A stretch of DNA of 51,760 bases from a virus. How positions within the stretch are numbered: the first letter of the stretch is position 1; every line of letters starts with the position of its first letter. The notes under the pieces were generated by a model, which worked only from the letters and a program-made list of their open reading frames with translations, was not told where the DNA came from and ran no database searches. This document shows, in pieces, positions 3,542-22,405 of this stretch. The position numbers were made by a program, and so were the translations under genes. The DNA lies in the IMG/VR virus record IMGVR_UViG_3300046777_001420, positions 1-51,760 of that record, one strand, 5' to 3'.

Positions 3542-3565
3542 CAGTTTAACGTCATGCTTAGGACG
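3542..3565 (-). promoter_or_regulatory. CGTC/GACG leader element, copy 1
   Basis: Minus-strand reading: CGTC, loop CTAAGCAT, GACG, then TTAAACTG. It lies 9 bases after the stop of the gene at 3575-3892 and 25 bases before the ATG at 3516. One of ten copies in the early arm. Confidence 0.75.
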
Positions 3566-3574
3566 TATAGCAAA

Positions 3575-3892
3575 CTACTTATCTGTTAGTAGTTCTTTAA
3601 CTTGTTTAATTTCATCCATCAGTTCATCTCGGCTAGGCCCTGGATCCCACGACCTTGCTTTAATTTCATCTGGGTTGTTTTCTTTTTGAATCATGCGTGC
3701 CTGCTCATCAGCAGAGTACACACACTCCATAAACAAATCCCAGATAAACTTGTCGGTAAATCCTTTAAGGCTAATGCCTCTATTAGAAGCTTCAGTGGTC
3801 ATAACTGCTAGGCAGTTAAGAATAAACTCAGATTTGCTGCGCAGAAGTTTATAGTACTCACCTTCAGGCAAGCCATAAGTTTCAAAGCTCAT
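3575..3892 (-). CDS. Hypothetical protein
   Basis: A 105-residue protein from the ATG at 3892, chosen because GGAG lies 9 bases upstream and the overlap with the preceding gene is then only 11 bases. Helical, with 'YYKLLRSKSEFILNCLAVM' and a charged C-terminus 'SRDELMDEIKQVKELL'. No recognised domain. The sequence is typical of small phage early proteins. Confidence 0.65.
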   Translation of the reverse strand: MSFETYGLPEGEYYKLLRSKSEFILNCLAVMTTEASNRGISLKGFTDKFIWDLFMECVYSADEQARMIQKENNPDEIKARSWDPGPSRDELMDEIKQVKELLTDK

Positions 3893-4139
3893 CAGACTCA
3901 TCTCCATTAAGTGCATTGGAAATAGCAGTGGTTAAAGCATCAATAATAAACTGTTGTTGCTTTTCTTCTCCAAGGCTGTTCCACCACTGGAGATCAGCAT
4001 CTTCTTCGTCCCATTCAATTTGAATAGTGCCGCCCCCATTTTCTTCTTCAATAAATCGGATGTCCAACTTAAAGACAGACGCTGGATCAGTACATTCAAA
4101 TTGCATCTGAGCTACGTACTCTTTGCCGGTGTTTTCCAT
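3882..4139 (-). CDS. Hypothetical acidic protein
   Basis: An 85-residue, strongly acidic protein: a strand-rich N-terminus ('QMQFECTDPASVFKLDIRF'), an acidic centre ('IEWDEEDADLQWWNSLGEE') and a C-terminal helix. ATG at 4139 lies inside the end of the upstream SWIM-type gene (28-base overlap). Strong negative charge could mean DNA mimicry, but that is only a guess. Confidence 0.65.
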   Translation of the reverse strand: MENTGKEYVAQMQFECTDPASVFKLDIRFIEEENGGGTIQIEWDEEDADLQWWNSLGEEKQQQFIIDALTTAISNALNGDESDEL

Positions 4140-5077
4140 GCATTACTCAGTTGTGGAAGTGCAATCCCAGGAAAGGGAATGAACCCGTTGTCTAACATGT
4201 TATCAAACAAATCCCAGACATGATGTTGCGTAAAGATCTCTTTTGGTTTGTAAGTACGCCAGGCTTTAAGCGGAGCCATAGAGCCCTGCTTGGTGTATAA
4301 AACAAGAAACCGACCTTCATTAGATGTACCTTCTGGTGGGGCGTACCACCAGGCTACCGCTTGCTCTGCCACTTGACCACGGCATTGTGAACGCGCTTCA
4401 GCACGCTTGACGAGCAACTCACGGTAACGCTGCATCCATGTCAGATGAATGCACCAAGGCTTGTAGCCTTCAATCTCAGCCTGGAACTCAGACAGATTAT
4501 TCAGTTGTCGCTGGAACGAACCACAAGAACAGTATGGATTTGTTTTAGGTTTTTGTATGACTTCACATTTAGCATCCGATTCAGATTCAGGAGCATCAAA
4601 ATCAATGGCACTATCAGCTTCTTGGAAACCATCAGGGGCAACCAGGTGCCCAAGATCAGTTTGATCTGATTGGAGTAACTGAACCAATTTAGTCCGATCT
4701 GAAATATGAATGAACTTATCAGCCCACGCACGTTGCATTTGCGCAGCTTGCGAAAGATATCCCAACTTGTGGCTGTAGTGCCAGCCTTTAAACATGATGT
4801 AAGAGTTGTTGCGCCAGATTGATGGTCCACGAAAGTTTGGTCCTAAGTAAGAGAAAAAATCCTTTAGACGAAAAGTAAACTGCTGGTACGCAGCTTTGAC
4901 TAGTTCCCTGCTGTAAGTTTGCTCAGTACCATCGTTACGCACCACGATAACAAGATCATCTCGCAAATAAATGGCAGAGATTTCCGTGTCATCAAAGTCT
5001 TGGAACGCACGACGAAGATTACTTTTTGTGTAAATGAGTTGTTGAGCTTGATTGAGTTGAGTAATTAGTTCGGTCAT
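4112..5077 (-). CDS. SWIM-type zinc-finger protein
   Basis: A 321-residue protein with C183-x-C185 ('PYCSCGSF') and C209-x-H211 ('PWCIH'), the CxC...CxH pattern of SWIM zinc fingers, which bind DNA or protein partners. The N-terminal half (KTxLxxA-like helix, then 'YLRDDLVIVVRNDGTEQTYS') resembles a small beta domain. The C-terminal part is rich in aromatic residues. I do not recognise the complete family. Its ATG overlaps the stop of a small membrane-protein gene (ATGA), so the two are coupled. Confidence 0.65.
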   Translation of the reverse strand: MTELITQLNQAQQLIYTKSNLRRAFQDFDDTEISAIYLRDDLVIVVRNDGTEQTYSRELVKAAYQQFTFRLKDFFSYLGPNFRGPSIWRNNSYIMFKGWHYSHKLGYLSQAAQMQRAWADKFIHISDRTKLVQLLQSDQTDLGHLVAPDGFQEADSAIDFDAPESESDAKCEVIQKPKTNPYCSCGSFQRQLNNLSEFQAEIEGYKPWCIHLTWMQRYRELLVKRAEARSQCRGQVAEQAVAWWYAPPEGTSNEGRFLVLYTKQGSMAPLKAWRTYKPKEIFTQHHVWDLFDNMLDNGFIPFPGIALPQLSNAWKTPAKST

Positions 5078-5250
5078 TGTTTTGGTGTTGAGTTGTATTT
5101 GGTGCTTTTGTAAACACCTTTAGCCATTAGGTACGTACCCCAAATGGTAATAGCCCAGCCTGCGGGCGTCCCTAGCATAGCAGCAATTGTGCCAGCGACC
5201 AAGCCAGTTGTCAGTCCTGTAGCAAATGCTGCCTTGTCTTCTGGTTTCAT
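5074..5250 (-). CDS. Small two-helix membrane protein
   Basis: A 58-residue protein with two hydrophobic stretches, 'TGLTTGLVAGTIAAMLG' and 'GWAITIWGTYLMAKG', and a basic C-terminus. The stop codon overlaps the next ATG (AATGACC). Too short for most gene finders. It is the first gene of its unit and lies back to back with the plus-strand gene at 5284, so the 33-base gap between them should hold divergent expression signals. Confidence 0.6.
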   Translation of the reverse strand: MKPEDKAAFATGLTTGLVAGTIAAMLGTPAGWAITIWGTYLMAKGVYKSTKYNSTPKQ

Positions 5251-5283
5251 TTGTGTAGTTGTGTGTAGAATTAATTATCCTCC

Positions 5284-5556
5284 ATGGTCCTTATGGAAGA
5301 GCATTACGTACCCCTTAGCAAGTTTGACATTGAACCATCAATTGATGATTTGTTTTGGGAAGAAAAAATTAAACGTTCAATTCAAGAGTGTAACTCAGTA
5401 AGTGCTTTAAAAGAAATGGCGACTCTTTTAGCAAGAATCGCCACACAACGTCAAGCTGTAATCAGGGGGTTAGTAAAAGACATTCACCTATTCAACAATG
5501 TGTTGATTGATGCGAATGAAATTGCTAACCCTGAACTTAAACCTCAGAAAGAATAA
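5284..5556 (+). CDS. Small helical protein on the opposite strand
   Basis: A 90-residue protein (or 87 from the ATG at 5293). It contains 'IKRSIQECNSVSALKEMATL' then 'LARIATQRQAVIRGLVKDI', a pattern I associate with small cyanobacterial and cyanophage proteins. It is a lone plus-strand gene within the minus arm. Its last 13 bases overlap the end of the DUF5895-like gene tail to tail. Function unknown; the orientation suggests separate timing of expression. Confidence 0.7.
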   Translation: MVLMEEHYVPLSKFDIEPSIDDLFWEEKIKRSIQECNSVSALKEMATLLARIATQRQAVIRGLVKDIHLFNNVLIDANEIANPELKPQKE

Positions 5557-6635
5557 TTCTCACCTGTATCAGGATCTTGTGCAGATGCCAAGAGTTTGAC
5601 ATCTACATCACCACCTCTGGATGCAGGAAGAATTTCTACACCTTCTTTAATTCCATAAGCACCACCTAGCTTTTCAGCGTCTTGTTTTGCATGCTGATTA
5701 ATATAGTCAGCAAACATGTCTTGATACTTCCAAGTGGATTCCCGATCTTCATCAGGAATTGACATTTGGTTCAGTGATTCGATTGCTGTTTCTTGGCTGC
5801 TGTAATCAGGGATACCAAAAGATTCAATTGCGCAGATCTCAACGTTGTTGGCACCACGCATCTCATTGGCAAGTACCGGAGCAAATACGGTAGTTGCATA
5901 AAACTTTTCATTGAATGCTAATGGGATCTCAGAGTCCAGTGCTTTGCTCAAGCACTTAGACATTTCTTTTTCATACAGTTTAATCTTGTCGGCAGCATCA
6001 GTGCCATTTAATCCTTTCAAGGTAAGGACCATTGGAATCTTGTGTGCACGCTTGTTATCTTTTGTCAGGATATAAACAAGGTACTTGGTGCGTACACCGT
6101 ACTTACGCTTGTACATCTCACCTTTGCTATTAGCAAGATCAGATGCAGTCTTATCAGCATCAAACAATTCTTTGACGGCTGGGTCATCAAAGGTTCCAAT
6201 CGTTTGCCTCATTCCCATAGTTTCCTCAACCATGAGGGGAGAACGTAAAAGGATTTGAATTCGAGGCTCAACAAAATTAAGTCCTTCTTCAATTGAAGTG
6301 TTGGGAGCCATACCAAAAGTCTGCTTGTAGTTCCAGATAACTGAACCCTTAACAAAGTCACTTTCAGTGGCACTCCATCCGCAAGTATCCAAGTCTGAGT
6401 TCCGCACGAACCAACCTCTTGTCTTTGACTTATTAAGAGGTTGGATGGTGACCAGGTTTTGGTATCCGGAGACAAACCTTTTGTCTTGAAAAAGTTTGAA
6501 CGAATCCAGTCCACGAGTAGCGAGAGCAGATGTTTTCTTAGTGGTCATGATCTTTACAGGAGTTTTGGTAGAGGTTTCAGAAGTTTGTTCAGTGTCAGGA
6601 TCAGGTTGTCTCAGAGCATTAAGAATGGAAGTCAT
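5544..6635 (-). CDS. DUF5895-like protein
   Basis: A 363-residue soluble protein. After a polar N-terminus come 'SKTRGWFVRNSDLDTCGW', 'VEPRIQILLRSPLM', 'YGVRTKYLVYILTKDNKRAH' and 'PMVLTLKGLNG', in the order I remember for DUF5895, a family found in cyanobacteria, their plasmids and phages. No catalytic motif is evident. It is preceded by leader element copy 2 (24-base gap) and lies near SSB and polymerase, so a role in replication or recombination is plausible but inferred. Confidence 0.6.
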   Translation of the reverse strand: MTSILNALRQPDPDTEQTSETSTKTPVKIMTTKKTSALATRGLDSFKLFQDKRFVSGYQNLVTIQPLNKSKTRGWFVRNSDLDTCGWSATESDFVKGSVIWNYKQTFGMAPNTSIEEGLNFVEPRIQILLRSPLMVEETMGMRQTIGTFDDPAVKELFDADKTASDLANSKGEMYKRKYGVRTKYLVYILTKDNKRAHKIPMVLTLKGLNGTDAADKIKLYEKEMSKCLSKALDSEIPLAFNEKFYATTVFAPVLANEMRGANNVEICAIESFGIPDYSSQETAIESLNQMSIPDEDRESTWKYQDMFADYINQHAKQDAEKLGGAYGIKEGVEILPASRGGDVDVKLLASAQDPDTGENYSF

Positions 6636-6659
6636 GGTTGTTTGTTGTTGAGTAACAGG

Positions 6660-6683
6660 CAGTTTAACGTCATGCGTAGGACG
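6660..6683 (-). promoter_or_regulatory. CGTC/GACG leader element, copy 2
   Basis: CGTC, loop CTACGCAT, GACG, TTAAACTG on the minus strand. It starts 5 bases after the stop of the gene at 6689-6922 and ends 24 bases before the ATG at 6635. Confidence 0.78.
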
Positions 6684-6688
6684 GTTAC

Positions 6689-6922
6689 TTAACTAGCTTC
6701 AAGAAAATCTTCTTTAAACTCTTTAAGTTTTTTCTTCATGTCTTTATGTTCATCAACAATGTCTTCCATATACTCAATTACAAAATCTTTGGCAAAGCCA
6801 CAGCCACACATAAACTGAACAAAAGCATCAATAATACTTGATCCTAGTTCAGCATTAAATGAAACTAAGTAGGTAGTGGAATCATCAATGTGTTTGAATT
6901 CGTAGTGATTGTAAATAGTCAT
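6689..6922 (-). CDS. Hypothetical protein
   Basis: A 77-residue protein from the ATG at 6922, five bases after the HNH stop. A beta-type N-terminus ('MTIYNHYEFKHIDDSTTYLV') is followed by a helix with 'FMCGCGFAKDF' and a lysine/glutamate-rich C-terminal helix. No family recognised. The CxC could bind metal with partners, but a single pair is weak evidence. Confidence 0.65.
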   Translation of the reverse strand: MTIYNHYEFKHIDDSTTYLVSFNAELGSSIIDAFVQFMCGCGFAKDFVIEYMEDIVDEHKDMKKKLKEFKEDFLEAS

Positions 6923-6927
6923 TGAGT

Positions 6928-7347
6928 TTAGAACGGAAAACAAAAAGTGTGTCGTTTTGCGTGGCAAGATTGGCAAAGCCAAATTACATCAAGAGGTTTT
7001 GAATAATCTTCATGATGTCCTTCTGGCTTGCAGTTTTTGTTGCAATCGGTACAGATAGACGGTCTATATAAACGACCGTCTCTTATTGCATTGTTAACAG
7101 CCGTATTTGCTTTTTTTCTTTCAGGAGATACACTAGATCCCAGCTTGCGCAGATGCTCTTGACGATAAACATCTCTTTTGTTTCGCATACGATCATATTC
7201 TCGAACATGATCATTTTCTGCTCGATGTTTACGCACACGTGTTCTTGTGCAAGTTTTGCAAATGTTTAGGTGACCATCTTTCATTCGTGAGTGTTTATAA
7301 TAAGCGGAAAGAGGTAAACTTTTTCCGCATTTTCGGCATGGTTTCAT
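6928..7347 (-). CDS. HNH endonuclease with zinc ribbon
   Basis: A 139-residue protein. N-terminal ribbon 'CRKCGKSLPLSAYYKHS...ICKTC' (residues 4-32), a basic helix, then 'CTDCNKNCKPEGHHEDYSKP' and 'LCQSCHAKRH'. The GHHxDYxxP...CxxCH layout is a common small phage HNH endonuclease. It sits directly downstream of the SSB gene (9-base gap) and upstream of a small unknown gene, a typical homing location next to a conserved replication gene. Confidence 0.88.
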   Translation of the reverse strand: MKPCRKCGKSLPLSAYYKHSRMKDGHLNICKTCTRTRVRKHRAENDHVREYDRMRNKRDVYRQEHLRKLGSSVSPERKKANTAVNNAIRDGRLYRPSICTDCNKNCKPEGHHEDYSKPLDVIWLCQSCHAKRHTFCFPF

Positions 7348-7356
7348 TCCAAAAGC

Positions 7357-8169: not shown

Positions 8170-8193
8170 TGGATCAGAAGTCAGGTGGTAAGG

Positions 8194-8217
8194 CAGTTTA
8201 ACGTCATACCTAGGACG
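8194..8217 (-). promoter_or_regulatory. CGTC/GACG leader element, copy 3
   Basis: CGTC, loop CTAGGTAT, GACG, TTAAACTG. It lies between the stop of the small membrane gene (8223) and the SSB ATG (8169), with a 24-base spacer. Confidence 0.78.
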
Positions 8218-8222
8218 GTTGG

Positions 8223-8390
8223 TTAGCGCCTGGGGTGAAGGCATGCGTCGTGTAGCAACCAATACAACCAACCAAGGACAAAGCCCTGGGGCCAGGTAAA
8301 AGCAAATGCGTACTTGATTGCTATCACATACAGTGCAAGAGTAAGCACTCCACCAATTACTGTACCAATTAGTTCTTTGTTTGAATCCAT
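8223..8390 (-). CDS. Small membrane protein
   Basis: A 55-residue protein: short polar N-terminus, a helix 'LIGTVIGGVLTLALYVIAI', then an aromatic second hydrophobic stretch ('FAFTWPQGFVLGWLYWLL') and a basic end. Its ATG directly follows the DNA polymerase TAA with no gap. It sits between polymerase and SSB but nothing in the sequence ties it to replication. Holin-like size, though the location argues against a lysis role. Confidence 0.6.
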   Translation of the reverse strand: MDSNKELIGTVIGGVLTLALYVIAIKYAFAFTWPQGFVLGWLYWLLHDACLHPRR

Positions 8391-10522: not shown

Positions 10523-10996
10523 TTAAATTTCAGGCCAAGAAAGTCCTTTTTTAATTCGATAAACAAGAGATTGAGCAATACCATATTCTTTAGCAATAGT
10601 TCTTTGAGGTCTTAAATCTGTTTTAATTTTTAATGCTTGTTCATATTTTAATTTTGCTAATGGATGCATTTCACCTTTTGGTGTATAATGAGTTCCATGA
10701 TTTTTTCTATCTAGTGCATTTTGTTTTGCAGTTCCCCAATATAAATTCAAATAATAATTATTTAATTTATTTCCATCGCGATGCAATACACATCCTGATT
10801 TTGTTCCATTAAAAAGCATACAAACTAATTTATGTACATAAATAGCTTTACGTTTGTATAAAACTTGATAATAACCTGATTTATTTTGATTTAATTTTCT
10901 GAGGATATTTCTACCCTCAGAAAAAACATGACCATATTCTGAAAACCAAAAAATAGAATTAAAATCTTTTTTCCATTTTATTTTTTTTAGATCCAT
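10523..10996 (-). CDS. NUMOD4/HNH-type homing endonuclease
   Basis: A 157-residue protein from the ATG at 10996. N-terminal NUMOD4-like part ('WFSEYGHVFSEGRNILRKL'), then 'YQVLYKRKAIYVHKLVCMLF' and 'VLHRDGNKLNNYYLNLYWGT', i.e. the VHxLV...xHxDGxxxNN..NLxWGT HNH core. The C-terminal helix-turn-helix reads 'RTIAKEYGIAQSLVYRI'. Very AT-rich and unlike its neighbours. It overlaps the end of the Gp88-like gene by 38 bases, suggesting it was inserted at that gene's 3' end. Confidence 0.85.
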   Translation of the reverse strand: MDLKKIKWKKDFNSIFWFSEYGHVFSEGRNILRKLNQNKSGYYQVLYKRKAIYVHKLVCMLFNGTKSGCVLHRDGNKLNNYYLNLYWGTAKQNALDRKNHGTHYTPKGEMHPLAKLKYEQALKIKTDLRPQRTIAKEYGIAQSLVYRIKKGLSWPEI

Positions 10997-11747
10997 ATCC
11001 GGACCACAATCCGTTTTTACGTCTAATGGCAAGTGCTTTACCAGCACTGGATCCAGCTCGTTGAGAACCATGAACCAAAAGAGCAAATGATTTGTTTCCT
11101 AAACATAACCTATCGTCATGGTCAATGTCGAGACCCATTTGCTCGGCTTGCTCTTCTGTGTACACAACATAAGCAACACGATAAAACACTTCTGGATACC
11201 TGGGAATCAAATAATCAAGAGTGCCACCTACCGATGCAGTTAAGTAAAGGTTATCAGGAATCTCGTGACGCTTTTCGTACCACATGCCTAGTGATTTTGT
11301 AAAAGCATACAGTTTGAGTTTTGGGTTGTTACGTGCAACTTGCAACCAAGCATTGAAATAAACCTGGGTCCAAAAGTCACCTGACTCATGGATACGCAGT
11401 AAATCATACTTAGATCTAACAGGTTGCGCTTGATCAATTGAATGTTGAATCAAGGCAACAAGAGCGTCAGTTGGGTTGCCTGAAGCATACATAGTTTCTT
11501 TAATTAGATCCCAGTTGTGCCAACGACTATCACGTACAGCAGGCCTGGTCTCTGCCATAGCAGCAAAGCAGCGATAGTCTTGCCAGCTTGGACCATTCTC
11601 CTGAGGAAGGTCAGTGATCTTGCCTGTGGTGCGATCAGCCAGTGTTTTACATACACCAGCGTGAGGGCATGAGTAACCAGCGGGCAAGCTAAAGATCAAA
11701 CGCTTGTCAAGCTTGGCGTTACCAGTTGAGAAGTTAAGAAGTTTCAT
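10959..11747 (-). CDS. Gp88-like phage protein
   Basis: A 262-residue protein beginning 'MKLLNFSTGNAKLDKRLIFS' then 'LPAGYSCPHAGVCK', and with 'SKYDLLRIHESGDFWTQVYF' in the centre. The 'LS-GN-KL...FSLPAG-TCP-A--C' opening is that of the gene product 88 (Gp88) family known from mycobacteriophages and others, whose function is unresolved. The C-terminus (basic, 'RRKNGLWSGYGSKKNKMEK') may have been altered by the adjoining HNH gene. Leader element copy 4 lies 54 bases upstream. Confidence 0.7.
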   Translation of the reverse strand: MKLLNFSTGNAKLDKRLIFSLPAGYSCPHAGVCKTLADRTTGKITDLPQENGPSWQDYRCFAAMAETRPAVRDSRWHNWDLIKETMYASGNPTDALVALIQHSIDQAQPVRSKYDLLRIHESGDFWTQVYFNAWLQVARNNPKLKLYAFTKSLGMWYEKRHEIPDNLYLTASVGGTLDYLIPRYPEVFYRVAYVVYTEEQAEQMGLDIDHDDRLCLGNKSFALLVHGSQRAGSSAGKALAIRRKNGLWSGYGSKKNKMEKRF

Positions 11748-11801
11748 TTGAAGTAAGTTGAGTTAAGTACAGACACATTAGTTTTACTAATATGTTGCAG
11801 A

Positions 11802-11825
11802 CAGTTTAACGTCATATCTAGGACG
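11802..11825 (-). promoter_or_regulatory. CGTC/GACG leader element, copy 4
   Basis: CGTC, loop CTAGATAT, GACG, TTAAACTG. The gap to the Gp88-like ATG is 54 bases, the longest of the set. The other side faces two plus-strand genes starting at 11898, so this is a divergent junction. Confidence 0.72.
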
Positions 11826-13527: not shown

Positions 13528-13890
13528 TTAAACGGCTTGAGCGCTGGTGTCAACAGGTTCACCAACCATTCCAGACTCTCTTAATCGATCAAGCATTTGA
13601 CACATGATCGTGGCATGCTCATGGGTTTTCTCCATGAATGCCATAGCACGGTCTGCTGAAATGGTGTGGACTGTACCGTTGGCTTCTGTGTATTGCCAAC
13701 TACCATCAGGCTGTGGCTGCCCTTGGAGCGCAAGACGCTCTGAGTTACGAACATACTTGAGTTCTAGGTTATGACTATCAGTCAAACCCTCTGGATCAGT
13801 CCATGTGAGTCCAAGGTTATAACGCTTGTCCTCATCCATGTATGCATGGGGTTGAGGAATAAAATGTTTAATAACAGCAAAGATTGACAT
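13528..13890 (-). CDS. Hypothetical protein
   Basis: A 120-residue protein from the ATG at 13890. A beta-rich centre ('LELKYVRNSERLALQGQPQP' and 'GSWQYTEANGTVHTISADRA') is followed by a helix 'FMEKTHEHATIMCQML'. No family recognised. Followed by a good terminator and preceded by the tRNA gene. Confidence 0.65.
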   Translation of the reverse strand: MSIFAVIKHFIPQPHAYMDEDKRYNLGLTWTDPEGLTDSHNLELKYVRNSERLALQGQPQPDGSWQYTEANGTVHTISADRAMAFMEKTHEHATIMCQMLDRLRESGMVGEPVDTSAQAV

Positions 13891-13946: not shown

Positions 13947-14020
13947 TGCCCGAGGGCGGATTCGAACCGCCGACTGCTCGATTTTAAGTCGAGAACCTCA
14001 TTCCGCTGGGTCACTCGGGC
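13947..14020 (-). tRNA. tRNA-Leu(UAA) with a short variable loop
   Basis: A 74-base cloverleaf: acceptor GCCCGAG/CTCGGGC (7 bp), anticodon arm CTCGA-CTTAAAA-TCGAG giving anticodon UAA, five-base variable loop CAGTC, T arm GGCGG-TTCGAAT-CCGCC, discriminator A. CCA is not encoded. D arm ACC/GGT with a GG pair in the loop. Bacterial tRNA-Leu normally has a long variable arm, so the class I form is unusual. Its 5' end overlaps the stop of the gene at 14011-14226 by 10 bases. Confidence 0.9.
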
Positions 14021-14277: not shown

Positions 14278-15999
14278 CTAATGAGATACTAGCTCATTTT
14301 CACGTGCTTGCAAAGCTTGACTAAATGCTGTGGTGTACAGCTCTTGTTGTTCTGGGCTAAGCCTGGAGTTTGATAGCCCAACAATTTGTTTGACAAACAT
14401 TGAACCATTGTTGACTTCCAATTGGACAGTGAACTGTGGCTTGCCATCAATCAAGCACAACACAATGAAGTGTTGTTTCTTACGGACACCCTCTGCATAA
14501 CCAGATGCATTACCAACGCAATTGCGTACGGCTTGTCCCCACTCACCCAGTTGATGTGTATCAATAGGTTGAAAGAATGTCCATTTACTGGAACCAAGTT
14601 CAATCTTGACAGGAACAGGAAACAAATCTTGTGGCAAGCTTTGGTTTGGGTTCTTAATCTTCCAGTTTTCTGCTTGAACATAATCATGAAACTCTTCGAT
14701 GCGCCAACGCTTAGGTGGTGCAAACTCTAAGTCTGGTTTGTCTTCGAGAATCCTGGTAAGCATAGAAGTTGTGTCGTTCCATTCATAGAAACGATAAATG
14801 TGAATACCAAGTTCACCATTTATAGGATACGTTTTTTGCTCTGCTACTTCTTTGTCATAGTATTTAGAAATGATTTGGAAAAATGAAGCAACAGGCATGT
14901 GTTTGCGTAACCATTCCATTGTTACATCACGATGACCATAAGATGAAAAATCAACACTAAGCATTTGTTCAATGTGGTTTTGATAGTAATCAATAGGACA
15001 ATCAGGCCAAATACTATTGACGTAAAGAATACGATCAAATAATTTATTAATAGTTAACCATGGACGCCTAATGTAACTACGGTATTCATTTGCTTCATCT
15101 ACGTATGTTGCGTTAACTTTATTACATTGTTCTTGAATCCATTTCTTAAAGAATGGCTTAGAAATAATATGAAGAATCTTATTGTATCTTCTATAGTTAT
15201 GCCCATAACTACCACTGATGTGCGCATGATATGTAATCAGATTAAACAAAGATTCATAAGATGCTTGCCAAGTTGTTCTATCATCTGTCTCCCAATAAGT
15301 ATTATCTGCATCTGATGAACTAACAAATAAAATTGACGGTAGATTATGTTTGCTTGCAATACGTTCAAAGATATTACTACTGTCTTGCCATACTGAAATA
15401 GTAGTTACTAGTTGTTCTTCAAACTGTTTAATAACTTTATAAAGTTCTTTAGACTTTTGATAATATGAAGTTGCACATGGAATATTCCAATTGCGACTTG
15501 TCTGTCCATTTTGAATTGAATCGATAGTAACCAATTCTTGATGTTGGTACATTACTGAACGACCAGTAACTACTTGTTGATATGAATCAATAGAGTTAGT
15601 AATTACCCGAGGCACAATTTCATGTGCAGCTTTTGTATCTTTAAATGCAAAGGCATAGCCATACACATACTTGCCTTCTTGTCCTTTAGATGGTAGCCAT
15701 GCTGCGTACCAGCAGTGCTCGTAGTGATACAAGATGGCAGTAACAATTACCTCGCCATTAGCGATGCGTGTAAATTTATAGTAACGATCTGCTGCAGGAT
15801 TTGAGTTGATGTGTGTGATTGCATCATCAAGCAATGACTCACGCACCACATCAACAGGGATCAATCCCTTGGGATTACCAAGTGGATGGGTAGATTTTCT
15901 GGCTTTAGGTTTTGGATTGTTGCTGCGTGCCAACTTCTTGAGCACTGGGTCATACGCAAGCAGTTCAGTTTGCAGATTAGAAGGGAGACGAAATTGCAT
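14278..15999 (-). CDS. PcfJ-like protein
   Basis: A 573-residue protein. The C-terminal domain has 'LGEWGQAVRNCVGNASGYAE', then 'HFIVLCLIDGKPQFTVQLEV' and 'VKQIVGLSNSRLSPEQQELY', the core pattern of PcfJ-like proteins (an Asn-Cys-Val-Gly motif at about residue 493, then a 'Q--G--N' motif). The N-terminal two thirds are helical and aromatic-rich. PcfJ-like proteins occur on conjugative plasmids and phages; their activity is unknown. Start 15999 lies 31 bases after leader element copy 5. The longer frame begins inside that element and is not credible. Confidence 0.72.
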   Translation of the reverse strand: MQFRLPSNLQTELLAYDPVLKKLARSNNPKPKARKSTHPLGNPKGLIPVDVVRESLLDDAITHINSNPAADRYYKFTRIANGEVIVTAILYHYEHCWYAAWLPSKGQEGKYVYGYAFAFKDTKAAHEIVPRVITNSIDSYQQVVTGRSVMYQHQELVTIDSIQNGQTSRNWNIPCATSYYQKSKELYKVIKQFEEQLVTTISVWQDSSNIFERIASKHNLPSILFVSSSDADNTYWETDDRTTWQASYESLFNLITYHAHISGSYGHNYRRYNKILHIISKPFFKKWIQEQCNKVNATYVDEANEYRSYIRRPWLTINKLFDRILYVNSIWPDCPIDYYQNHIEQMLSVDFSSYGHRDVTMEWLRKHMPVASFFQIISKYYDKEVAEQKTYPINGELGIHIYRFYEWNDTTSMLTRILEDKPDLEFAPPKRWRIEEFHDYVQAENWKIKNPNQSLPQDLFPVPVKIELGSSKWTFFQPIDTHQLGEWGQAVRNCVGNASGYAEGVRKKQHFIVLCLIDGKPQFTVQLEVNNGSMFVKQIVGLSNSRLSPEQQELYTTAFSQALQARENELVSH

Positions 16000-16030
16000 G
16001 GTGTGTTCAGAGTAAGTTCGTAGTGTAGAG

Positions 16031-16054
16031 CAGTTTAACGTCATGCTCAGGACG
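16031..16054 (-). promoter_or_regulatory. CGTC/GACG leader element, copy 5
   Basis: CGTC, loop CTGAGCAT, GACG, TTAAACTG. Five bases after the stop at 16060 and 31 bases before the PcfJ-like ATG (15999). The ATG inside the loop opens a spurious in-frame extension. Confidence 0.78.
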
Positions 16055-16059: not shown

Positions 16060-16260
16060 TTACCAACGCATTACTTCTTTACCATCAACTTTAAAAACAA
16101 TTTGATCATCAAGATCTTTTAAATATTCATCCAATGTAATGGTACGGTTTGACAGCATGACTGGCATCTGTTTAGCAAACCCAAAAGCTGAGTACACTCG
16201 ACCTTTGGGTCCACGGATAACCAGATACCAACGCTTGAATTCAATTGAGAAACCAATCAT
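16060..16260 (-). CDS. Hypothetical protein
   Basis: A 66-residue, strand-rich, basic protein: 'MIGFSIEFKRWYLVIRGPKG', 'RVYSAFGFAKQMP', ending 'VFKVDGKEVMRW'. The ATG overlaps the upstream stop (ATGA). No recognised family. Confidence 0.62.
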   Translation of the reverse strand: MIGFSIEFKRWYLVIRGPKGRVYSAFGFAKQMPVMLSNRTITLDEYLKDLDDQIVFKVDGKEVMRW

Positions 16261-16718: not shown

Positions 16719-16743
16719 AGGTTGAGTTGAGATAGGACATGGA

Positions 16744-16767
16744 CAGTTTAACGTCATGTCCAGGACG
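16744..16767 (-). promoter_or_regulatory. CGTC/GACG leader element, copy 6
   Basis: CGTC, loop CTGGACAT, GACG, TTAAACTG; 25 bases before the ATG at 16718. The nearest gene upstream is 114 bases away, so here the element starts a free-standing unit. Confidence 0.78.
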
Positions 16768-18267: not shown

Positions 18268-18612
18268 TTATCTGGCAGTACCAAGGTTAAGTGTACGAAT
18301 GCGAGCTGCTTTCTCTTCACGTTTGCGTTTAAAATACACAGGACTAATCTGGTCTTCAAACTCAGTTAGTCGTTTGTTCAAACAACTGATTGCCTCTTGG
18401 TACCACTCAGTTTGATTATCAATTAAATCAAGGTCTTTACTTTGGATAATTTCATTTAGTCGTTGTTGAAAGTAATCAATACGAGCTCTGAATAAATTAG
18501 TGATAAGCCACCATTCATCTTCGTGAAGGTCCGTCCAAGTAACAGTGTGTAATCCTTGTGGATAATCAGGTGACACTCCTTTAGTTTTGTCAGCAGCTTT
18601 GGTTCTTGCCAT
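18268..18612 (-). CDS. Hypothetical helical protein
   Basis: A 114-residue protein with a basic N-terminus ('MARTKAADKTKGVSPDYPQG'), a tryptophan-rich strip ('VTWTDLHEDEWWLITNLF') and a long helix ending in a basic patch ('VYFKRKREEKAARIRTL'). Looks DNA- or RNA-binding by charge only. No family recognised. Confidence 0.65.
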   Translation of the reverse strand: MARTKAADKTKGVSPDYPQGLHTVTWTDLHEDEWWLITNLFRARIDYFQQRLNEIIQSKDLDLIDNQTEWYQEAISCLNKRLTEFEDQISPVYFKRKREEKAARIRTLNLGTAR

Positions 18613-18662
18613 AGTGTTTGAAGTAAATAAGATTTAATTCTGTGAAATTAAATTAAATTAAA

Positions 18663-18989
18663 TTACCGATGTGCTTCTTGATGTTCTTTCCATGCAGCAC
18701 TGTGCATCTCAGCCATGGTAATAGGTGGTTCACCATATGAGTCTTCAATTTCATAAGGCCATTCAATTGCTTTCTCAAGTAAATCGATGGCCTCTAGTAG
18801 TAATTCTTCTGAACTGTAAGGAAGATCATTATGTCCCAATGGACGTTCGTCTTCTCGTTTAACGATTGCCTTAAGTTCTTTGATCATGAGTTCAATGCGT
18901 TTGTCGTCATGCATAGGAATGACGCGAGCTATCTCTCCGTTAGGAGACTGCCAAACGCTTGGTTCAAAGTGAAGTTCAGTTTGTTTCAT
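18663..18989 (-). CDS. Hypothetical protein
   Basis: A 108-residue acidic protein: 'MKQTELHFEPSVWQSPNGEI', a helix 'KRIELMIKELKAIVKREDE', 'SSEELLLEAIDLLEKAI' and 'MAEMHSAAWKEHQEAHR'. No domain recognised. It lies 26 bases after leader element copy 7, the copy with a changed stem. Confidence 0.65.
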   Translation of the reverse strand: MKQTELHFEPSVWQSPNGEIARVIPMHDDKRIELMIKELKAIVKREDERPLGHNDLPYSSEELLLEAIDLLEKAIEWPYEIEDSYGEPPITMAEMHSAAWKEHQEAHR

Positions 18990-19015
18990 GATGGATGCAA
19001 AGTTAGTTTGTTAAG

Positions 19016-19039
19016 CAGTTTAAAGACATGCTCAGGTCT
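19016..19039 (-). promoter_or_regulatory. Leader element, copy 7 (AGAC/GTCT stem)
   Basis: AGAC, loop CTGAGCAT, GTCT, TTAAACTG. The loop and tail equal those of copy 5 but both stem arms differ (CGTC/GACG elsewhere) and still pair. 26 bases before the ATG at 18989 and 8 bases after the stop at 19048. Confidence 0.75.
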
Positions 19040-19047
19040 AGCAGACG

Positions 19048-19314
19048 TTATTGAGAAGAGTTCTCGATAACGTTTGCAGGTTTGGTTTCTGGATCTTTAA
19101 TGATCCATCCACCGTAATGAACGGTGTTACGTTCAACGCTAATTAATTGTTTCTCTTCTAGTACTTCCAATGCTCTGAGAAAAGTATTGGACCTAGATTG
19201 AAACATCATTAGCTCTGGTACAAGACAAGCTTTACCTTTGTACTTCTGCTTGTGATGCAGGTAGTACTGATAGATATTGCGTTGAGTTGTAGTGAGACCT
19301 ACTGGTTTAGGCAT
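19048..19314 (-). CDS. Winged-helix regulator-like protein
   Basis: An 88-residue protein from the ATG at 19314. 'LTTTQRNIYQYYLHHKQKYK', 'CLVPELMMFQSRSNTFLRAL' and 'VLEEKQLISVERNTVHYGGW' match a winged helix-turn-helix: helix, recognition helix, then wing ending 'YGGWIIKDP'. Start 19314 is preferred over 19356 because inverted GCCAATA repeats lie between them and would then be an operator in the leader. Probably a phage transcription regulator, possibly autoregulated. Confidence 0.6.
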   Translation of the reverse strand: MPKPVGLTTTQRNIYQYYLHHKQKYKGKACLVPELMMFQSRSNTFLRALEVLEEKQLISVERNTVHYGGWIIKDPETKPANVIENSSQ

Positions 19315-19332
19315 TGGTGCATTAGATGTTTC

Positions 19333-19370
19333 GTATTGGCACATTAGCCAATACATGGGTAGTATTGGCT
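19333..19370 (-). promoter_or_regulatory. Three-fold TATTGGC/GCCAATA operator-like repeat
   Basis: tattggc (19333-19339), gccaata (19347-19353) and tattggc (19363-19369) alternate in orientation. The last two form a perfect 9-bp inverted repeat (19346-19370). Located just upstream of the winged-helix gene, a likely binding site for its product. Confidence 0.5.
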
Positions 19371-19397
19371 ATTTTGACGTGCACTTTAATACTTGAC

Positions 19398-19736
19398 TTA
19401 GATCAGGCCGAGAATCCTAAGCCAGGAGTCTGGGTGATCCGGTTCGACTTCGTCGTCACCTGGCGTGAACGCAACTGAGTCGAAGCACCACTCCTCGATT
19501 TCTTCGTTGGTTGGGATGTCATACCATCCTTCAAGTTCTTTGTCTCCGTAGACAGGCACCCAGTAACAACGCAGGACTCCCTGCTTGTTTCTGTAGACGT
19601 TACCAGTGCAAGCGATGGCTCCTTTAGGTGCGTTCTGGAAGTCGCACTCTGCCTGGTACTGCTGCTGACCTTCTTCTTCGTCAAAGGGTTTGTAGCCAAA
19701 AGTTGAAGCGATTTCTTGGGTGATGGGGTGAAGCAT
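19398..19736 (-). CDS. Hypothetical acidic protein
   Basis: A 112-residue, acidic protein: 'MLHPITQEIASTFGYKPFDE', 'AIACTGNVYRNKQGVLRCYW', 'GWYDIPTNEEIEEWCF', 'EVEPDHPDSWLRILGLI'. Beta-rich middle and two distant Cys. An overlapping frame from an ATG at 19825 covers it (see rejected items), but this frame has normal amino-acid composition. Function unknown. Confidence 0.65.
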   Translation of the reverse strand: MLHPITQEIASTFGYKPFDEEEGQQQYQAECDFQNAPKGAIACTGNVYRNKQGVLRCYWVPVYGDKELEGWYDIPTNEEIEEWCFDSVAFTPGDDEVEPDHPDSWLRILGLI

Positions 19737-19824
19737 GAGATGAGTTCTGTGATAAGGATTGAGATGATAACAATGATGTGCAGTATTACATCATCATTAT
19801 ATTGTTGGGTTTGAAGTTGTTTCA

Positions 19825-19983
19825 TTAGAAGTGAACATTGGGTAGTGTGTGAGTTGATTTGTCAACACCAAGCCATTCCTCTGGAACAGACTCGCGCATG
19901 GCTTGCTCCTGTTCATAGGCTTGGTCCGCCATAGCATCAAGTGCATCAGACGGAATGTCATTTTCAAATTCGTTTGAATGCAT
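19825..19983 (-). CDS. Hypothetical small acidic protein
   Basis: A 52-residue protein from the ATG at 19983 ('MHSNEFENDIPSDALDAMAD'), 34 bases after leader copy 8. Acidic helix then 'VPEEWLGVDKSTHTLPNVHF'. No family recognised. The upstream frame extension begins in the leader and is not used. Confidence 0.62.
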   Translation of the reverse strand: MHSNEFENDIPSDALDAMADQAYEQEQAMRESVPEEWLGVDKSTHTLPNVHF

Positions 19984-20017
19984 GATTTGTCGGAAGTTGA
20001 CTGCAGTGTTTGTAGAG

Positions 20018-20041
20018 CAGTTTAACGTCATACTCAGGACG
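20018..20041 (-). promoter_or_regulatory. CGTC/GACG leader element, copy 8
   Basis: CGTC, loop CTGAGTAT, GACG, TTAAACTG; 11 bases after the stop at 20053 and 34 bases before the ATG at 19983. Confidence 0.78.
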
Positions 20042-20052
20042 TGTCCTAGTTG

Positions 20053-20412
20053 TTACGGATAAGGAATAAAGTTTGATTCCTTACCTGTTAACTGCTGGAT
20101 CGTTACACAATCTTCTTCTATTTCTTCAAGTGATTCATATTCATTCGTCTGATCTTCGACGACTTCGCAACCGACGTCCTCTAGTTCATTAACGAACTGA
20201 GCCCATGAGTTGGCATTGCCATAGACATGGGCATAACGTCCGGATGCATCAGCGATTAATGCAACGTATGTCATAGGTTGAGTTTCAGTTAATGTGAATG
20301 GTCTTTGATCTGCTGCCATGACAAGTGCATGGACAGCAGCTAGTTCTCTGGTTGATAGCTCACCGTTGTGTTTCCATTTGAGCGTTGTTTGGTTTAGATA
20401 ATCTTGTGGCAT
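20053..20412 (-). CDS. Hypothetical protein
   Basis: A 119-residue protein: 'LSTRELAAVHALVMAADQRP', 'TYVALIADASGRYAHVYG', 'WAQFVNELEDVGCEVVED', with an acidic end. Alternating helix and strand, no catalytic motif. Overlaps the end of the small membrane gene upstream by 53 bases. Unknown function. Confidence 0.65.
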   Translation of the reverse strand: MPQDYLNQTTLKWKHNGELSTRELAAVHALVMAADQRPFTLTETQPMTYVALIADASGRYAHVYGNANSWAQFVNELEDVGCEVVEDQTNEYESLEEIEEDCVTIQQLTGKESNFIPYP

Positions 20413-20521
20413 CGTCTAGGTTAAATGTGGTGACATCATAACCAAGCATTGCACCGGCAGTGATGACTGCGATGCAAAAGGTAATGAGTACACCAAAGAC
20501 TTTGCCAACGGCATTATCCAT
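20360..20521 (-). CDS. Small membrane protein
   Basis: A 53-residue protein from the ATG at 20521: 'MDNAVGKVFGVLITFCIAVI' continuing 'TAGAMLGYDV', one transmembrane helix, then a polar tail. The start has a good Shine-Dalgarno (AAGGTGA, 4 bases away) placed inside a perfect AATCACC/GGTGATT hairpin. The frame extends to an ATG at 20593, which could give a longer form or a leader. Confidence 0.6.
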   Translation of the reverse strand: MDNAVGKVFGVLITFCIAVITAGAMLGYDVTTFNLDDATRLSKPNNAQMETQR

Positions 20522-20545
20522 GTAATCACCTTGGTGATTATAGGT
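20521..20545 (-). promoter_or_regulatory. Hairpin that covers a ribosome binding site
   Basis: AATCACC-AA-GGTGATT on the minus strand, with the AAGGTGA ribosome site in its 3' arm, directly before the ATG at 20521. A second inverted repeat, GGTATCA/TGATACC, lies just upstream. Translation may depend on unfolding. Confidence 0.45.
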
Positions 20546-20677
20546 ATCAAGATGGATGTAACGGCTGATACCAAGCTTGATGATTTGTTTCATGGTGATA
20601 GGTCTGAGTGAAAGGAATCAACCTAACGGTTGATGGGCGACTAGTATAATTGTACTAGTGGTGATGGGAATAGGGGA

Positions 20678-20696
20678 GCAGGATGTTAAGTCCTGC
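20678..20696 (-). promoter_or_regulatory. GCAGGA-CTTAACA-TCCTGC hairpin
   Basis: Six-bp stem with loop CTTAACA, lying directly after a terminator. The same loop type (CTTCACA) recurs at 21015-21031, suggesting a second family of leader hairpins. Confidence 0.5.
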
Positions 20697-20700
20697 AGAA

Positions 20701-20731
20701 AACCCACTCATCACAATGGATGAGAAGGGTT
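20701..20731 (-). terminator. Rho-independent terminator
   Basis: On the minus strand AACCC-CTCATC...GATGAG-GGGTT followed by TTTTC. It ends the unit containing the gene at 20743-20985. Confidence 0.65.
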
Positions 20732-20742
20732 AAGTGCAGGAA

Positions 20743-20985
20743 TCAATCCATCATATGTTCTTGTTCCCACTTGAGAAGCGCACGATTAAGATCGACTTTC
20801 TTCTCAAGGACAACAACAAATGGGATTAGATCCTGGAACTGAGCCAATCCGTCTTGCCATTGGTAAAAGATTTCAAGCGCTTGTTGCCGTGCACTCTCAA
20901 TCTCTTGGTCAATAACAGGTGCATCTCGACGAGCGAGAAGCCTGGCGTCTTGGATCAGAAGTTGTTCAACACTTGCAGGAGACAT
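20743..20985 (-). CDS. Hypothetical helical protein
   Basis: An 80-residue protein: 'MSPASVEQLLIQDARLLARR', 'EIESARQQALEIFYQWQDGL', 'LEKKVDLNRALLKWEQEHMM'. Almost entirely amphipathic helix, probably a small coiled-coil dimer. Preceded by the CTTCACA-loop hairpin (29-base gap) and followed by a terminator, so it is its own transcription unit. Confidence 0.65.
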   Translation of the reverse strand: MSPASVEQLLIQDARLLARRDAPVIDQEIESARQQALEIFYQWQDGLAQFQDLIPFVVVLEKKVDLNRALLKWEQEHMMD

Positions 20986-21014
20986 AGTCCTAGGTGGGTT
21001 GAGTTGAATTGAGT

Positions 21015-21031
21015 GCAGATGTGAAGTCTGC
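21015..21031 (-). promoter_or_regulatory. GCAGA-CTTCACA-TCTGC hairpin
   Basis: Five-bp stem, seven-base loop CTTCACA, 29 bases before the ATG at 20985. Sister of the hairpin at 20678-20696, with one more pair there and the loop kept. Confidence 0.5.
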
Positions 21032-21033
21032 AG

Positions 21034-21057
21034 AAAACCCTGGTGTTACTCAGGGTT
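21034..21057 (-). terminator. Rho-independent terminator
   Basis: Minus strand AACCCTG, loop AGTAACAC, CAGGGTT, then TTCTG. A perfect 7-bp stem after the stop of the gene at 21069-21317. Confidence 0.6.
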
Positions 21058-21068
21058 AGTTGCAAACA

Positions 21069-21317
21069 TCAGTCTGCCATTGCCATGCGTCGTTCAAATT
21101 CGCACACCTGGCAATAGTTATAAAACTCTTGCATATGAGTGAACATCTCACTCATGCTCGTGGGTATACCACTACCAAGAGGTTGGACATTGCGGTCTAT
21201 CCAGTCGGGATTACCATCCCAACCGTCGACCTGTTGTTCATAATGCAACTGGGTTGATTCACCGCCGTGCCATACAACACGATCGGTTGAGTTGATTTGA
21301 GGTTGATAGATCATCAT
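21069..21317 (-). CDS. Hypothetical protein
   Basis: An 82-residue protein: 'MMIYQPQINSTDRVVWHGGE', 'QVDGWDGNPDWIDRNVQPLG', 'FTHMQEFYNYCQVCEFERRM'. Contains a CxxC in the last third but only one pair. Overlaps the upstream stop by ATGA. Function unknown. Confidence 0.62.
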   Translation of the reverse strand: MMIYQPQINSTDRVVWHGGESTQLHYEQQVDGWDGNPDWIDRNVQPLGSGIPTSMSEMFTHMQEFYNYCQVCEFERRMAMAD

Positions 21318-21481
21318 TTGACTTGAGTTTCGATAGTCATGAATGCATCCTTAGGCATGATTACTGCCGCAAGACGGACACGATACTCATGCACCTTAGA
21401 TGCAATAGTCTCTTTCGTTGTATCAGTCTCCAGCTTCGTAGCTGTTAACTTGAGGATGTTAGCCAGATTCTTACGAATCAT
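21314..21481 (-). CDS. Hypothetical basic protein
   Basis: A 55-residue protein from the ATG at 21481: 'MIRKNLANILKLTATKLETD', 'TIASKVHEYRVRLAAVIM', 'DAFMTIETQVK'. Helical then beta. Two hairpins lie just upstream (21492-21510 and 21519-21539), the nearer one 10 bases from the ATG. No known family. Confidence 0.58.
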   Translation of the reverse strand: MIRKNLANILKLTATKLETDTTKETIASKVHEYRVRLAAVIMPKDAFMTIETQVK

Positions 21482-21491
21482 GGGTCTATGA

Positions 21492-21510
21492 GCCACTCTC
21501 AGTGAGTGGC
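21492..21510 (-). promoter_or_regulatory. GCCACTC/GAGTGGC hairpin at a start codon
   Basis: A perfect 7-bp stem with a 5-base loop (ACTGA), 10 bases upstream of the ATG at 21481. Confidence 0.45.
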
Positions 21511-21518
21511 AATAACTA

Positions 21519-21557
21519 GACCAGGGTTTGCACCTGGTCACCCGCTTTTACGGATCA
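21519..21557 (-). repeat. TCCGTAAAAGCGG + hairpin element, copy A
   Basis: Begins with the TGA stop of the gene at 21555, then TCCGTAAAAGCGG and a hairpin GACCAGG-TGCAAAC-CCTGGTC. A second copy with the same 13-base core lies at 21786-21826. Confidence 0.65.
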
Positions 21558-21764
21558 GTTGTCAACAGACTTAAACTCCTGAATCTTCAGATACAAGTCT
21601 TCAATCTGTTTATGGTCCAATACGACTTCTTTGCCTTCGATATCTGTAAACGAAACCGGTGTGCCTGCGCCGAAGTCGACGCAGAACAAATCGATGCAAT
21701 GCATCAGGAAGTCAGCCTGGTTGAAGTCGAGCTGCATAACATTAAGCAATGGTGCGGTACCCAT
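21555..21764 (-). CDS. Hypothetical protein
   Basis: About 69 residues from the ATG at 21764; an ATG at 21737 is an alternative. 'MQLDFNQADFLMHCIDLFCV', 'GAGTPVSFTDIEGKEVVLD', 'LYLKIQEFKSVDN'. Strand-helix-strand with a DNA-mimic-like acidity. No family recognised. Flanked by the two copies of the TCCGTAAAAGCGG element. Confidence 0.58.
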   Translation of the reverse strand: MGTAPLLNVMQLDFNQADFLMHCIDLFCVDFGAGTPVSFTDIEGKEVVLDHKQIEDLYLKIQEFKSVDN

Positions 21765-21785
21765 CTCCGCTGGGGGTAATACTGA

Positions 21786-21826
21786 GCCTGGGGGTCGCAC
21801 CCAGGCATGCCGCTTTTACGGACTCA
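21786..21826 (-). repeat. TCCGTAAAAGCGG + hairpin element, copy B
   Basis: Begins with the TGA stop of the gene at 21824, then GTCCGTAAAAGCGG and a hairpin GCCTGGG-TGCGACC-CCCAGGC. Core identical to copy A and loop nearly so, while stem bases differ but still pair. Confidence 0.65.
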
Positions 21827-22102
21827 GCATCCAAGCATCTCGTCCACATAGGACTTGATGACCTGGAGGTGGTCTCGATCAAGTGTCTGGCTACGGCCAT
21901 ACTCAAGCAGGTCAAGGACCTGGAGCATGACCTTTTCACCAGCCTCTTCACGAGACGGCACGCCACACATATCGAAGATCTCATCACGTGACATCTGAGT
22001 GATGTCAACGCAATCGATCTGACGAACGGTGGCGATAGTGGTGTTGGTCACAGTGTTACTCCTAGTGAGCTTGGACTTACACTGCTGAATTGCAGATGCC
22101 AA
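21824..22102 (-). CDS. Hypothetical protein
   Basis: A 92-residue protein: 'MASAIQQCKSKLTRSNTVTN', 'CVDITQMSRDEIFDMCGVPS', 'VLDLLEYGRSQTLDRDHLQV'. The C-terminal helical part is well formed, the N-terminus polar. Leader element copy 9 lies 28 bases upstream. No recognised family. Confidence 0.63.
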   Translation of the reverse strand: MASAIQQCKSKLTRSNTVTNTTIATVRQIDCVDITQMSRDEIFDMCGVPSREEAGEKVMLQVLDLLEYGRSQTLDRDHLQVIKSYVDEMLGC

Positions 22103-22130
22103 GTTGTGACCAACCGTTGAGTTGTCTGCT

Positions 22131-22152
22131 GCGTTTAACGTCCAGCTTGACG
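22131..22152 (-). promoter_or_regulatory. CGTC/GACG leader element, copy 9 (short loop)
   Basis: CGTC, six-base loop AAGCTG, GACG, TTAAACGC; 28 bases before the ATG at 22102. Same stem as most copies but a different, shorter loop shared with copy 10. Confidence 0.72.
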
Positions 22153-22178
22153 GGCCAATAATTAAAATCCCCTGGTAC

Positions 22179-22358
22179 TCAGAACGGAAACACTTCTATC
22201 ACAAGCAGATCTTGCTCCCAATCTTCAAAAGATTGGAAATATTGAACCGCCTGTTCCTCTGTGTCGAAGCTGCGTTCACTTCCTTGAAAGTACGCATCAA
22301 TAGATGTGTAATCCGCATAATCTGAGTAATCTCTTTTGACCTGAACTGAATAAACCAT
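22179..22358 (-). CDS. Hypothetical acidic protein
   Basis: A 59-residue protein from the ATG at 22358: 'MVYSVQVKRDYSDYADYTSI', 'GSERSFDTEEQAVQYFQSF', 'EQDLLVIEVFPF'. Beta-helix-beta with many Tyr and Asp. Start is 25 bases after leader copy 10; the long upstream frame crosses the origin-like region and is not real. Unknown function. Confidence 0.65.
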   Translation of the reverse strand: MVYSVQVKRDYSDYADYTSIDAYFQGSERSFDTEEQAVQYFQSFEDWEQDLLVIEVFPF

Positions 22359-22383
22359 TGTGTTAAGTTGAATAGGACATGCT

Positions 22384-22405
22384 ACGTTTAACGTCCAGCT
22401 TGACG
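22384..22405 (-). promoter_or_regulatory. CGTC/GACG leader element, copy 10 (short loop)
   Basis: CGTC, loop AAGCTG, GACG, TTAAACGT; 25 bases before the ATG at 22358. It lies between that gene and the DnaA-box cluster. Confidence 0.72.

Follow-up and report, generated by a model that had tools for sequence, protein, structure and literature searches.

A compact RNA pseudoknot behind stop codons in tailed phages, possibly a 3′-end element of the upstream message

The early arm of a 51,760-nucleotide (nt) stretch of viral DNA (IMG/VR record IMGVR_UViG_3300046777_001420, positions 1 to 51,760; hereafter the window) carries ten copies of a short repeated element, all on the minus strand. The window belongs to a relative of Synechococcus phage S-EIV1, with a DNA polymerase identity of 74%. 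Here we describe this element, which covariation between its arms identifies as a compact H-type RNA pseudoknot of ∼28 nt, and which is found directly 3′ of coding sequences, as would be expected of an intercistronic roadblock to decay in the manner of REP elements or 3′ stem-loops. Whether it serves the upstream gene as an intercistronic 3′-end element, probably by obstructing 3′-5′ RNA decay once the transcript is cleaved, is in our judgement about an even call.

The search pattern CGTC-N(6-12)-GACGTTAAAC finds nine exact copies in the window (CGTC-N6/8-GACGTTAAAC, minus strand only) and none in 100 dinucleotide-preserving shuffles. The tenth copy, at 19012-19039 (AGAC...GTCTTTAAAC; full reading AGACCTGAGCATGTCTTTAAAC), looks degenerate but is actually compensated, AGAC being matched by GTCT. 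The ten elements listed in an earlier sequence-only reading of the window are therefore real, and its view that an apparently functional RNA element recurs along the early arm is supported. That reading likened each copy to the T4/RB69 gp43 operator, as a hairpin whose loop has eight bases; instead, the element extends 5-6 bases further 3′ than the limit set there, and the additional bases pair with the supposed loop, which complements the bases directly after TTAAAC (GAGCA/TGCTC, GGACA/TGTCC, AAGCA/TGCTT, GGTCA/TGACC). The resulting layout has a first stem (P1, NNNC/GNNN), a first loop (L1, C), a second stem (P2, ∼UGAGYA/URCUCA), one spacer base and a third loop (L3, NWAAAC), giving the consensus NNNC-C-UGAGYA-(U/A)-GNNN-NWAAAC-URCUCA.

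Both stems covary strongly. When P1 was held fixed in a search, full pairing was seen in 26 of 38 distinct P2 combinations (13.5 when shuffled); a scan that fixed P2 and let P1 vary gave 55 distinct P1 combinations, of which 36 paired fully, against 4.3 (maximum 11) in shuffled controls, and the alternative 5′ arms found in relatives (GGAC, TGTC, AGAC, AGTC, GGTC) each come with their own complement. In an alignment of 93 sequences over 28 columns, drawn mostly from these two scans, 94.7% of paired cells are complementary vs. 77.8% after shuffling, and double changes number 146 vs. 36; the two middle P1 pairs show four pair types each without a single failure. Sliding the partner by 1-3 columns abolishes the signal, pairing being far lower in all of these controls. 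The loops are near-constant in sequence, while the stems covary freely, and U-G wobbles are frequent in P2, which favors RNA as the functional form. A structural scanner run over 2.4 Mb of fetched loci returned 384 matches, compared with zero after shuffling; the count does not measure enrichment, as the loci were fetched with the motif itself. Two window copies have orthologous sites in S-EIV1: the counterpart of 8190-8217, before the SSB gene, carries a compensated P2 (CAAGCA/UGCUU), and that of 11798-11825, before the GP88 gene, combines P1 UGUC/GACA with P2 AAGCA/UGCUU. Because the loop covaries with downstream bases, the simple hairpin was abandoned in favor of the pseudoknot, which is presumably transcribed and folded in vivo.

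Among 300 copies with a co-directional upstream open reading frame (ORF), the stop codon lies 5 nt before the pseudoknot in 61, the mode, and 0-4 nt before it in none; outside cyanophages, distances of 5-11 nt are all populated, with no reading-frame preference. On the other side, few copies come closer than 19 nt to the next start codon; the distance peaks at 19-22 and 28 nt in the entire set, which compact cyanophages dominate, and outside the latter it is scattered and reaches 1 kb. From these two distributions it is seen that the pseudoknot respects the footprints of both the terminating and the initiating ribosome, with the stop as its anchor. Simple ORF calls show only the upstream gene to be co-directional in 27 cases and only the downstream gene in 8, and 82 of 84 multi-copy loci hold all copies on a single strand. 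A DNA operator or promoter was discarded as an explanation, since the ribosome-footprint spacing, the co-orientation with genes and the U-G wobbles favor RNA. Tandem copies are few (loci L088 and L226), and neighboring pseudoknots lie within 120 nt of each other in only four pairs among the 384 matches.

Transfer RNA genes within 100 nt of a pseudoknot are downstream of it in 23 cases (20 of them within 13 nt) vs. upstream in one. A few nt separate the pseudoknot from a type III hammerhead ribozyme behind it in L151 (ribozyme at 13785-13834, plus strand) and L154 (minus strand), and a third hammerhead, read by hand, follows the pseudoknot directly in L092 (minus strand); Rfam scans of these three loci did not report hammerheads, which were found by checks of core and stems. 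Promoter-like sites (at least 11 of 12 consensus bases) follow the pseudoknot in 16 cases on its own strand, vs. two on the opposite one. A pseudoknot with a stop codon before it and a new promoter, a self-cleaving ribozyme or an RNase P site behind it should be part of the upstream transcript. Among non-cyanophage copies, a gene for a DUF932 protein (phrog_1221) stands upstream in 15 of 44, a recurrence that partly reflects a single lineage, and no downstream family exceeds 3 of 41.

Several observations touch these neighbors. A tRNA-Asp gene directly after the pseudoknot forms a conserved block in L153, L164, L165, L171, L181, L190, L199, L225, L241 and others, many of which have a DUF932 gene upstream; the DUF932 relatives of these phage contigs are actinophage genes. 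In Streptomyces phages with a DUF932 gene, a structural scan found no pseudoknot behind it, and the structure predicted by AlphaFold for the DUF932 protein was of too low a quality to be used. Hammerheads also occur in phage contig L177, at 5334 and 9957 (plus strand).

These placements suggest how the element might work. Cleavage of a long phage transcript downstream of the pseudoknot, whether by endonucleases, by a hammerhead ribozyme or, at a tRNA, by RNase P, would leave the upstream mRNA with the pseudoknot close to or at its 3′ terminus, followed by a short tail. In the simplest function, the pseudoknot would then halt 3′-5′ exonucleases before they reach the coding sequence. It is placed as near the stop codon as the terminating ribosome allows. 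A precedent is the proposal that hammerheads flanking phage genes divide long transcripts into mRNAs of one gene each (PMC3088659). The roadblock mechanism, and the purpose of blocking decay, are deduced from this arrangement. If decay from the 3′ end is indeed blocked, the element would account for the stability of single messages derived from a cleaved polycistronic transcript. More broadly, we tentatively propose a new pseudoknot family of tailed phages, in hosts from the cyanobacteria, Firmicutes, Actinobacteria and Alphaproteobacteria, that may serve as a general 3′-end stabilizer, with RNase P and hammerhead cleavage cutting and capping single-gene mRNAs; this generalization seems to us plausible, if somewhat short of an even prospect. 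The 28-nt element would then punctuate phage transcripts in general, a mark so far overlooked in genome annotation. Its spacing rules are exact enough for ready annotation and testing: a distance of 5 nt or more from the preceding stop, of ∼19 nt or more to the next start and of 3 nt or more to a following tRNA.

Several results weigh against this interpretation. The DUF932-pseudoknot-tRNA-Asp arrangement recurs in one lineage, so that the 23 tRNA cases are not independent, and terminator-like sites are equally frequent on either side of the pseudoknot (8 vs. 9), for which reason an association with terminators was dropped. In S-EIV1-like cyanophages, downstream families recur at least as strongly as upstream ones (entropy 4.6 vs. 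5.3 bits, with the caveat that short upstream ORFs cluster poorly), and seven different upstream families precede the SSB sites and eight the GP88 sites. Four window copies (11798, 16740, 22128 and 22381) have no ORF end within 12 nt upstream, and three window copies have none within 100 nt. In several Firmicutes phages the pseudoknot lies between a terminator-like hairpin and the scaffold and capsid genes, a poor fit to a 3′-end role. The element may have a double role, or act on the downstream gene in the cyanophage and Firmicutes-phage lineages. Between pseudoknot and scaffold gene, L134, L121, L126 and L127 carry a second conserved hairpin (CGTGGCGTTGCACG / CGTGGTCGTTGCCACG), in place of which L136 and L143 share GGGGCTTATGCAA.

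Two other explanations look to the gene that follows. The sequence-only reading treated the element as the leader of that gene, with one phage protein coordinating the arm; in this account an RNA-binding protein, such as SSB (compare T4 gp32), would repress the following gene, and so the early arm as a whole. We think this unlikely. The ∼10 window copies do stand 20-50 nt before early genes, including SSB, the UUAAAC of L3 recalls the UUAAA repeats that accompany the ∼28-nt pseudoknot of the SSB-binding operator of T4 gene 32 (PMC535899), and the recurrence of downstream families in cyanophages agrees with coordination; yet the pseudoknot stays outside the initiating ribosome's footprint (at least 19 nt), without overlap of the start region, and a motif search of phage genomes, which that reading had advised, revealed a widespread element constrained in its distance to the stop, not to the start. 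The same pseudoknot also stands before tRNAs, hammerheads and promoters, positions that exclude a leader function for a downstream mRNA, and its occurrence as single copies beside diverse, unrelated genes in phages of many unrelated hosts leaves a single coordinating protein unsupported, although one may act in cyanophages, with their recurrent downstream families. Alternatively, the pseudoknot could stabilize the 5′ end of the downstream message, for example scaffold or capsid mRNAs, by blocking a 5′-3′ exonuclease (RNase J) or by shielding a processed 5′ end. In phages of Staphylococcus, Lactobacillus, Streptococcus and Enterococcus, and in D6E, it does lie just before the genes for scaffold and major capsid proteins, and the downstream families of cyanophages can again be cited; nevertheless, where a tRNA, hammerhead or promoter follows, processing or initiation would separate the pseudoknot from the next gene, and a plausible copy occurs in a plasmid of Acinetobacter, a lineage that is generally held to lack RNase J. 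We judge such a 5′-end function improbable, and a host range dependent on RNase J was dropped after the plasmid copy was found.

The remaining explanations assign the element to neither neighbor's message. As a decoy or antitoxin-like RNA, carried in untranslated gaps, it would mimic or neutralize a host ToxN (type III) ribonuclease toxin or another host RNase. Type III antitoxins are pseudoknots, and phage PhiTE neutralizes ToxN with pseudo-ToxI repeats (PMC3475682); the highly conserved loop sequences, as in a protein-recognized RNA, the few tandem copies and a degenerate array in a Phytoplasma genome could be read in the same sense. We nonetheless give the idea little credence: close pairs are as rare as noted above, single copies dispersed behind stops do not constitute an array processed by ToxN, the 23-to-1 asymmetry of tRNAs is left unexplained, and Rfam yields no match in the window at E values up to 1. 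A ribosome-facing element at the stop codon, acting through readthrough, frameshifting or termination-reinitiation, is in our view highly improbable. Viral recoding pseudoknots have spacers of a length comparable to 5 nt, which the 5-nt mode recalls; however, the 5-11 nt range, populated throughout and without frame preference in the non-cyanophage set, the lack of an apparent slippery sequence and the copies before tRNAs all speak against it, and readthrough and frameshifting were dropped for want of a frame preference.

The pseudoknot is essentially a phage element, rare outside viruses. In IMG/VR it occurs in at least 230 contig stretches (two collection scans: at least 117 and at least 120). 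Named phages that carry it include Staphylococcus SA13, Lactobacillus phiEF-1.1, Streptococcus Javan271, Arthrobacter Molivia, Mycobacterium Labelle, Nostoc NMeng1, Moorella MTATph1, the thermophilic D6E, the T4-like cyanophages S-H35 and S-RIM4, Paracoccus ParMal1 and ParKuw1, Roseobacter SIO1, Lentibacter ICBM1 and Celeribacter P12053L, with SA13, Javan271 and ParMal1 being partial or variant matches that the strict scanner did not list. By comparison, 257 Gb of bacterial and archaeal contigs yielded seven stretches, one of which (L128) is cyanophage-like; the motif was absent from 5,426 E. coli genomes, and 791 Bacilli and Clostridia genomes gave few matches above a reversed-pattern control, which itself had no match in 30 pseudoknot-carrying records. 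Given this scarcity, host genomes were rejected as the source. Vibrio matches, which fall inside or beside annotated coding sequences, were excluded from all counts. The Phytoplasma array mentioned above lies in L132 (Candidatus Phytoplasma vitis metagenome-assembled genome CP097583.1, ∼3800-4200, minus strand), where ∼10 degenerate units follow a coding region in tandem.

Within the window, where every copy is on the minus strand, six copies lie close behind an ORF, at 9, 5, 5, 5, 8 and 11 nt from its stop in the ORF table. These are 3538..3565 (P2 UAAGCA/UGCUUG; 9 nt after ORF 3575-3916), 6656..6683 (P2 ACGCA/UGCCU with one C-C mismatch; 5 nt after ORF 6689-6982, and followed by the DUF5895 gene at 5544-6635), 8190..8217 (P2 AGGUA/UGCCU; 5 nt after ORF 8223-8390, with the SSB gene next), 16027..16054 (P2 GAGCA/UGCUC; 5 nt after ORF 16060-16260, with a PcfJ-like gene next), 19012..19039 (the compensated P1 AGAC/GUCU, with P2 UGAGCA/UGCUUA; 8 nt after ORF 19048-19356) and 20014..20041 (P2 GAGUA/UGCUC; 11 nt after ORF 20053-20412). 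The PcfJ-like gene was called at 14278-16044, overlapping its pseudoknot, and probably starts at an ATG internal to that call. The copy at 11798..11825 (P2 AGAUA/UGUCU), without a nearby upstream ORF end, precedes a GP88-family gene (10959-11747), and that at 16740..16767 has P2 UGGACA/UGUCCA. Two further copies, at 22128..22152 (CGUC-AA-GCUG-GACG-UUAAACG-CAGC) and 22381..22405 (CGUC-AA-GCUG-GACG-UUAAACG-UAGC), are of a variant type with L1 AA and P2 GCTG/CAGC or TAGC. The families of the genes behind the copies, as proposed in the sequence-only reading, were borne out by matches to SSB (PF00436, 1e-7), DUF5895 (3e-11), GP88 (2e-38) and PcfJ (4e-6). The gap from pseudoknot to downstream gene is only ∼20-28 nt in the window, a shortness that we attribute to the compact genome.

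The variant pseudoknot (L1 AA or GA, P2 GCUG/CAGC) was also seen in L015, L024, L029, L042, L049, L095 and L107; its context is conserved (caagggatctcagcgattg...), and a larger RNA possibly includes it. Leaders of the genes behind pseudoknots, on the window's minus strand and in related cyanophage contigs, are C/A-rich (ACTCAACTCAACC-ATG), with no obvious Shine-Dalgarno sequence. The early arm further holds a tRNA-Leu gene (anticodon TAA; 13947-14020, minus strand), which no pseudoknot adjoins, and the window encodes a protein with HNH_3 and AP2 domains (2808-3341, minus strand) that is likely a homing endonuclease.

The sequence-only reading knew of no named family with this motif, and in Rfam, against which the window was scanned at E values up to 1, we likewise found none that matches the pseudoknot; nor was a description found in the literature searched, which lay outside preprints and most subscription journals. 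Its nearest described counterpart is STAXI (RF01728), a group of simple pseudoknots near SSB, integrase, topoisomerase and antirestriction genes of mobile elements (PMC2864571), and a distant kinship is possible. The two share a simple pseudoknot near SSB genes; however, STAXI consists of two or three tandem pseudoknots, often with UUCG tetraloops, whereas the phage element is a single 28-nt unit without a tetraloop, located after stops. The window copies are single, no UUCG occurs in the 28-column alignment of 93 copies, and RF01728 had no match at E≤1 in the window and none in six pseudoknot-carrying records, control genomes being equally silent; the preQ1-I riboswitch (RF00522) was also without a match in the window at E≤1. 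The operator of T4 gene 32, known from T2 and RB69 as well, is a ∼28-nt H-type pseudoknot with UUAAA motifs (PMC535899), and thus similarly a small pseudoknot in phage mRNA adjoining an SSB gene, as are the copy at 8190-8217 and its S-EIV1 ortholog. In contrast to the T4 operator, which is autogenous, serves a single gene and lies 5′ of the Shine-Dalgarno region, the present element recurs behind many genes and keeps its position relative to the upstream stop; rather than being specific to SSB, it also precedes DUF5895, GP88 and PcfJ genes, tRNAs, capsid operons and hammerheads.

Size and topology are near-identical to those of the 28-nt frameshifting pseudoknots of luteovirus type (beet western yellows virus, BWYV), in which L1 is likewise very short with C as its first base, a single base forms the junction and L3 is A-rich. 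Those pseudoknots, however, stimulate frameshifting at a slippery site inside genes, whereas the phage element has no apparent slippery site and no frame preference. ToxI-type antitoxins, which are tandem pseudoknots that phages can mimic (PMC3475682), are likewise small phage- or plasmid-borne pseudoknot RNAs; the ToxI unit, however, measures 36 nt and is repeated in tandem, the repeats being cut by the toxin, in contrast to the mostly single, dispersed copies described here, and no ToxN family was detected among the window proteins scanned, which covered part of the window. Finally, exonuclease-resistant RNAs (xrRNAs) appended to prime editing guide RNAs (pegRNAs) illustrate how a structured motif protects an RNA end from decay (PMC8986804), the principle proposed here. 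If our interpretation holds, the phage pseudoknot would provide the RNA field with a natural, very small and portable 3′-end protector; xrRNAs block 5′-3′ enzymes by means of a ring fold, and pegRNA motifs are engineered, whereas this element, with its putative resistance, is a natural part of phage mRNA.

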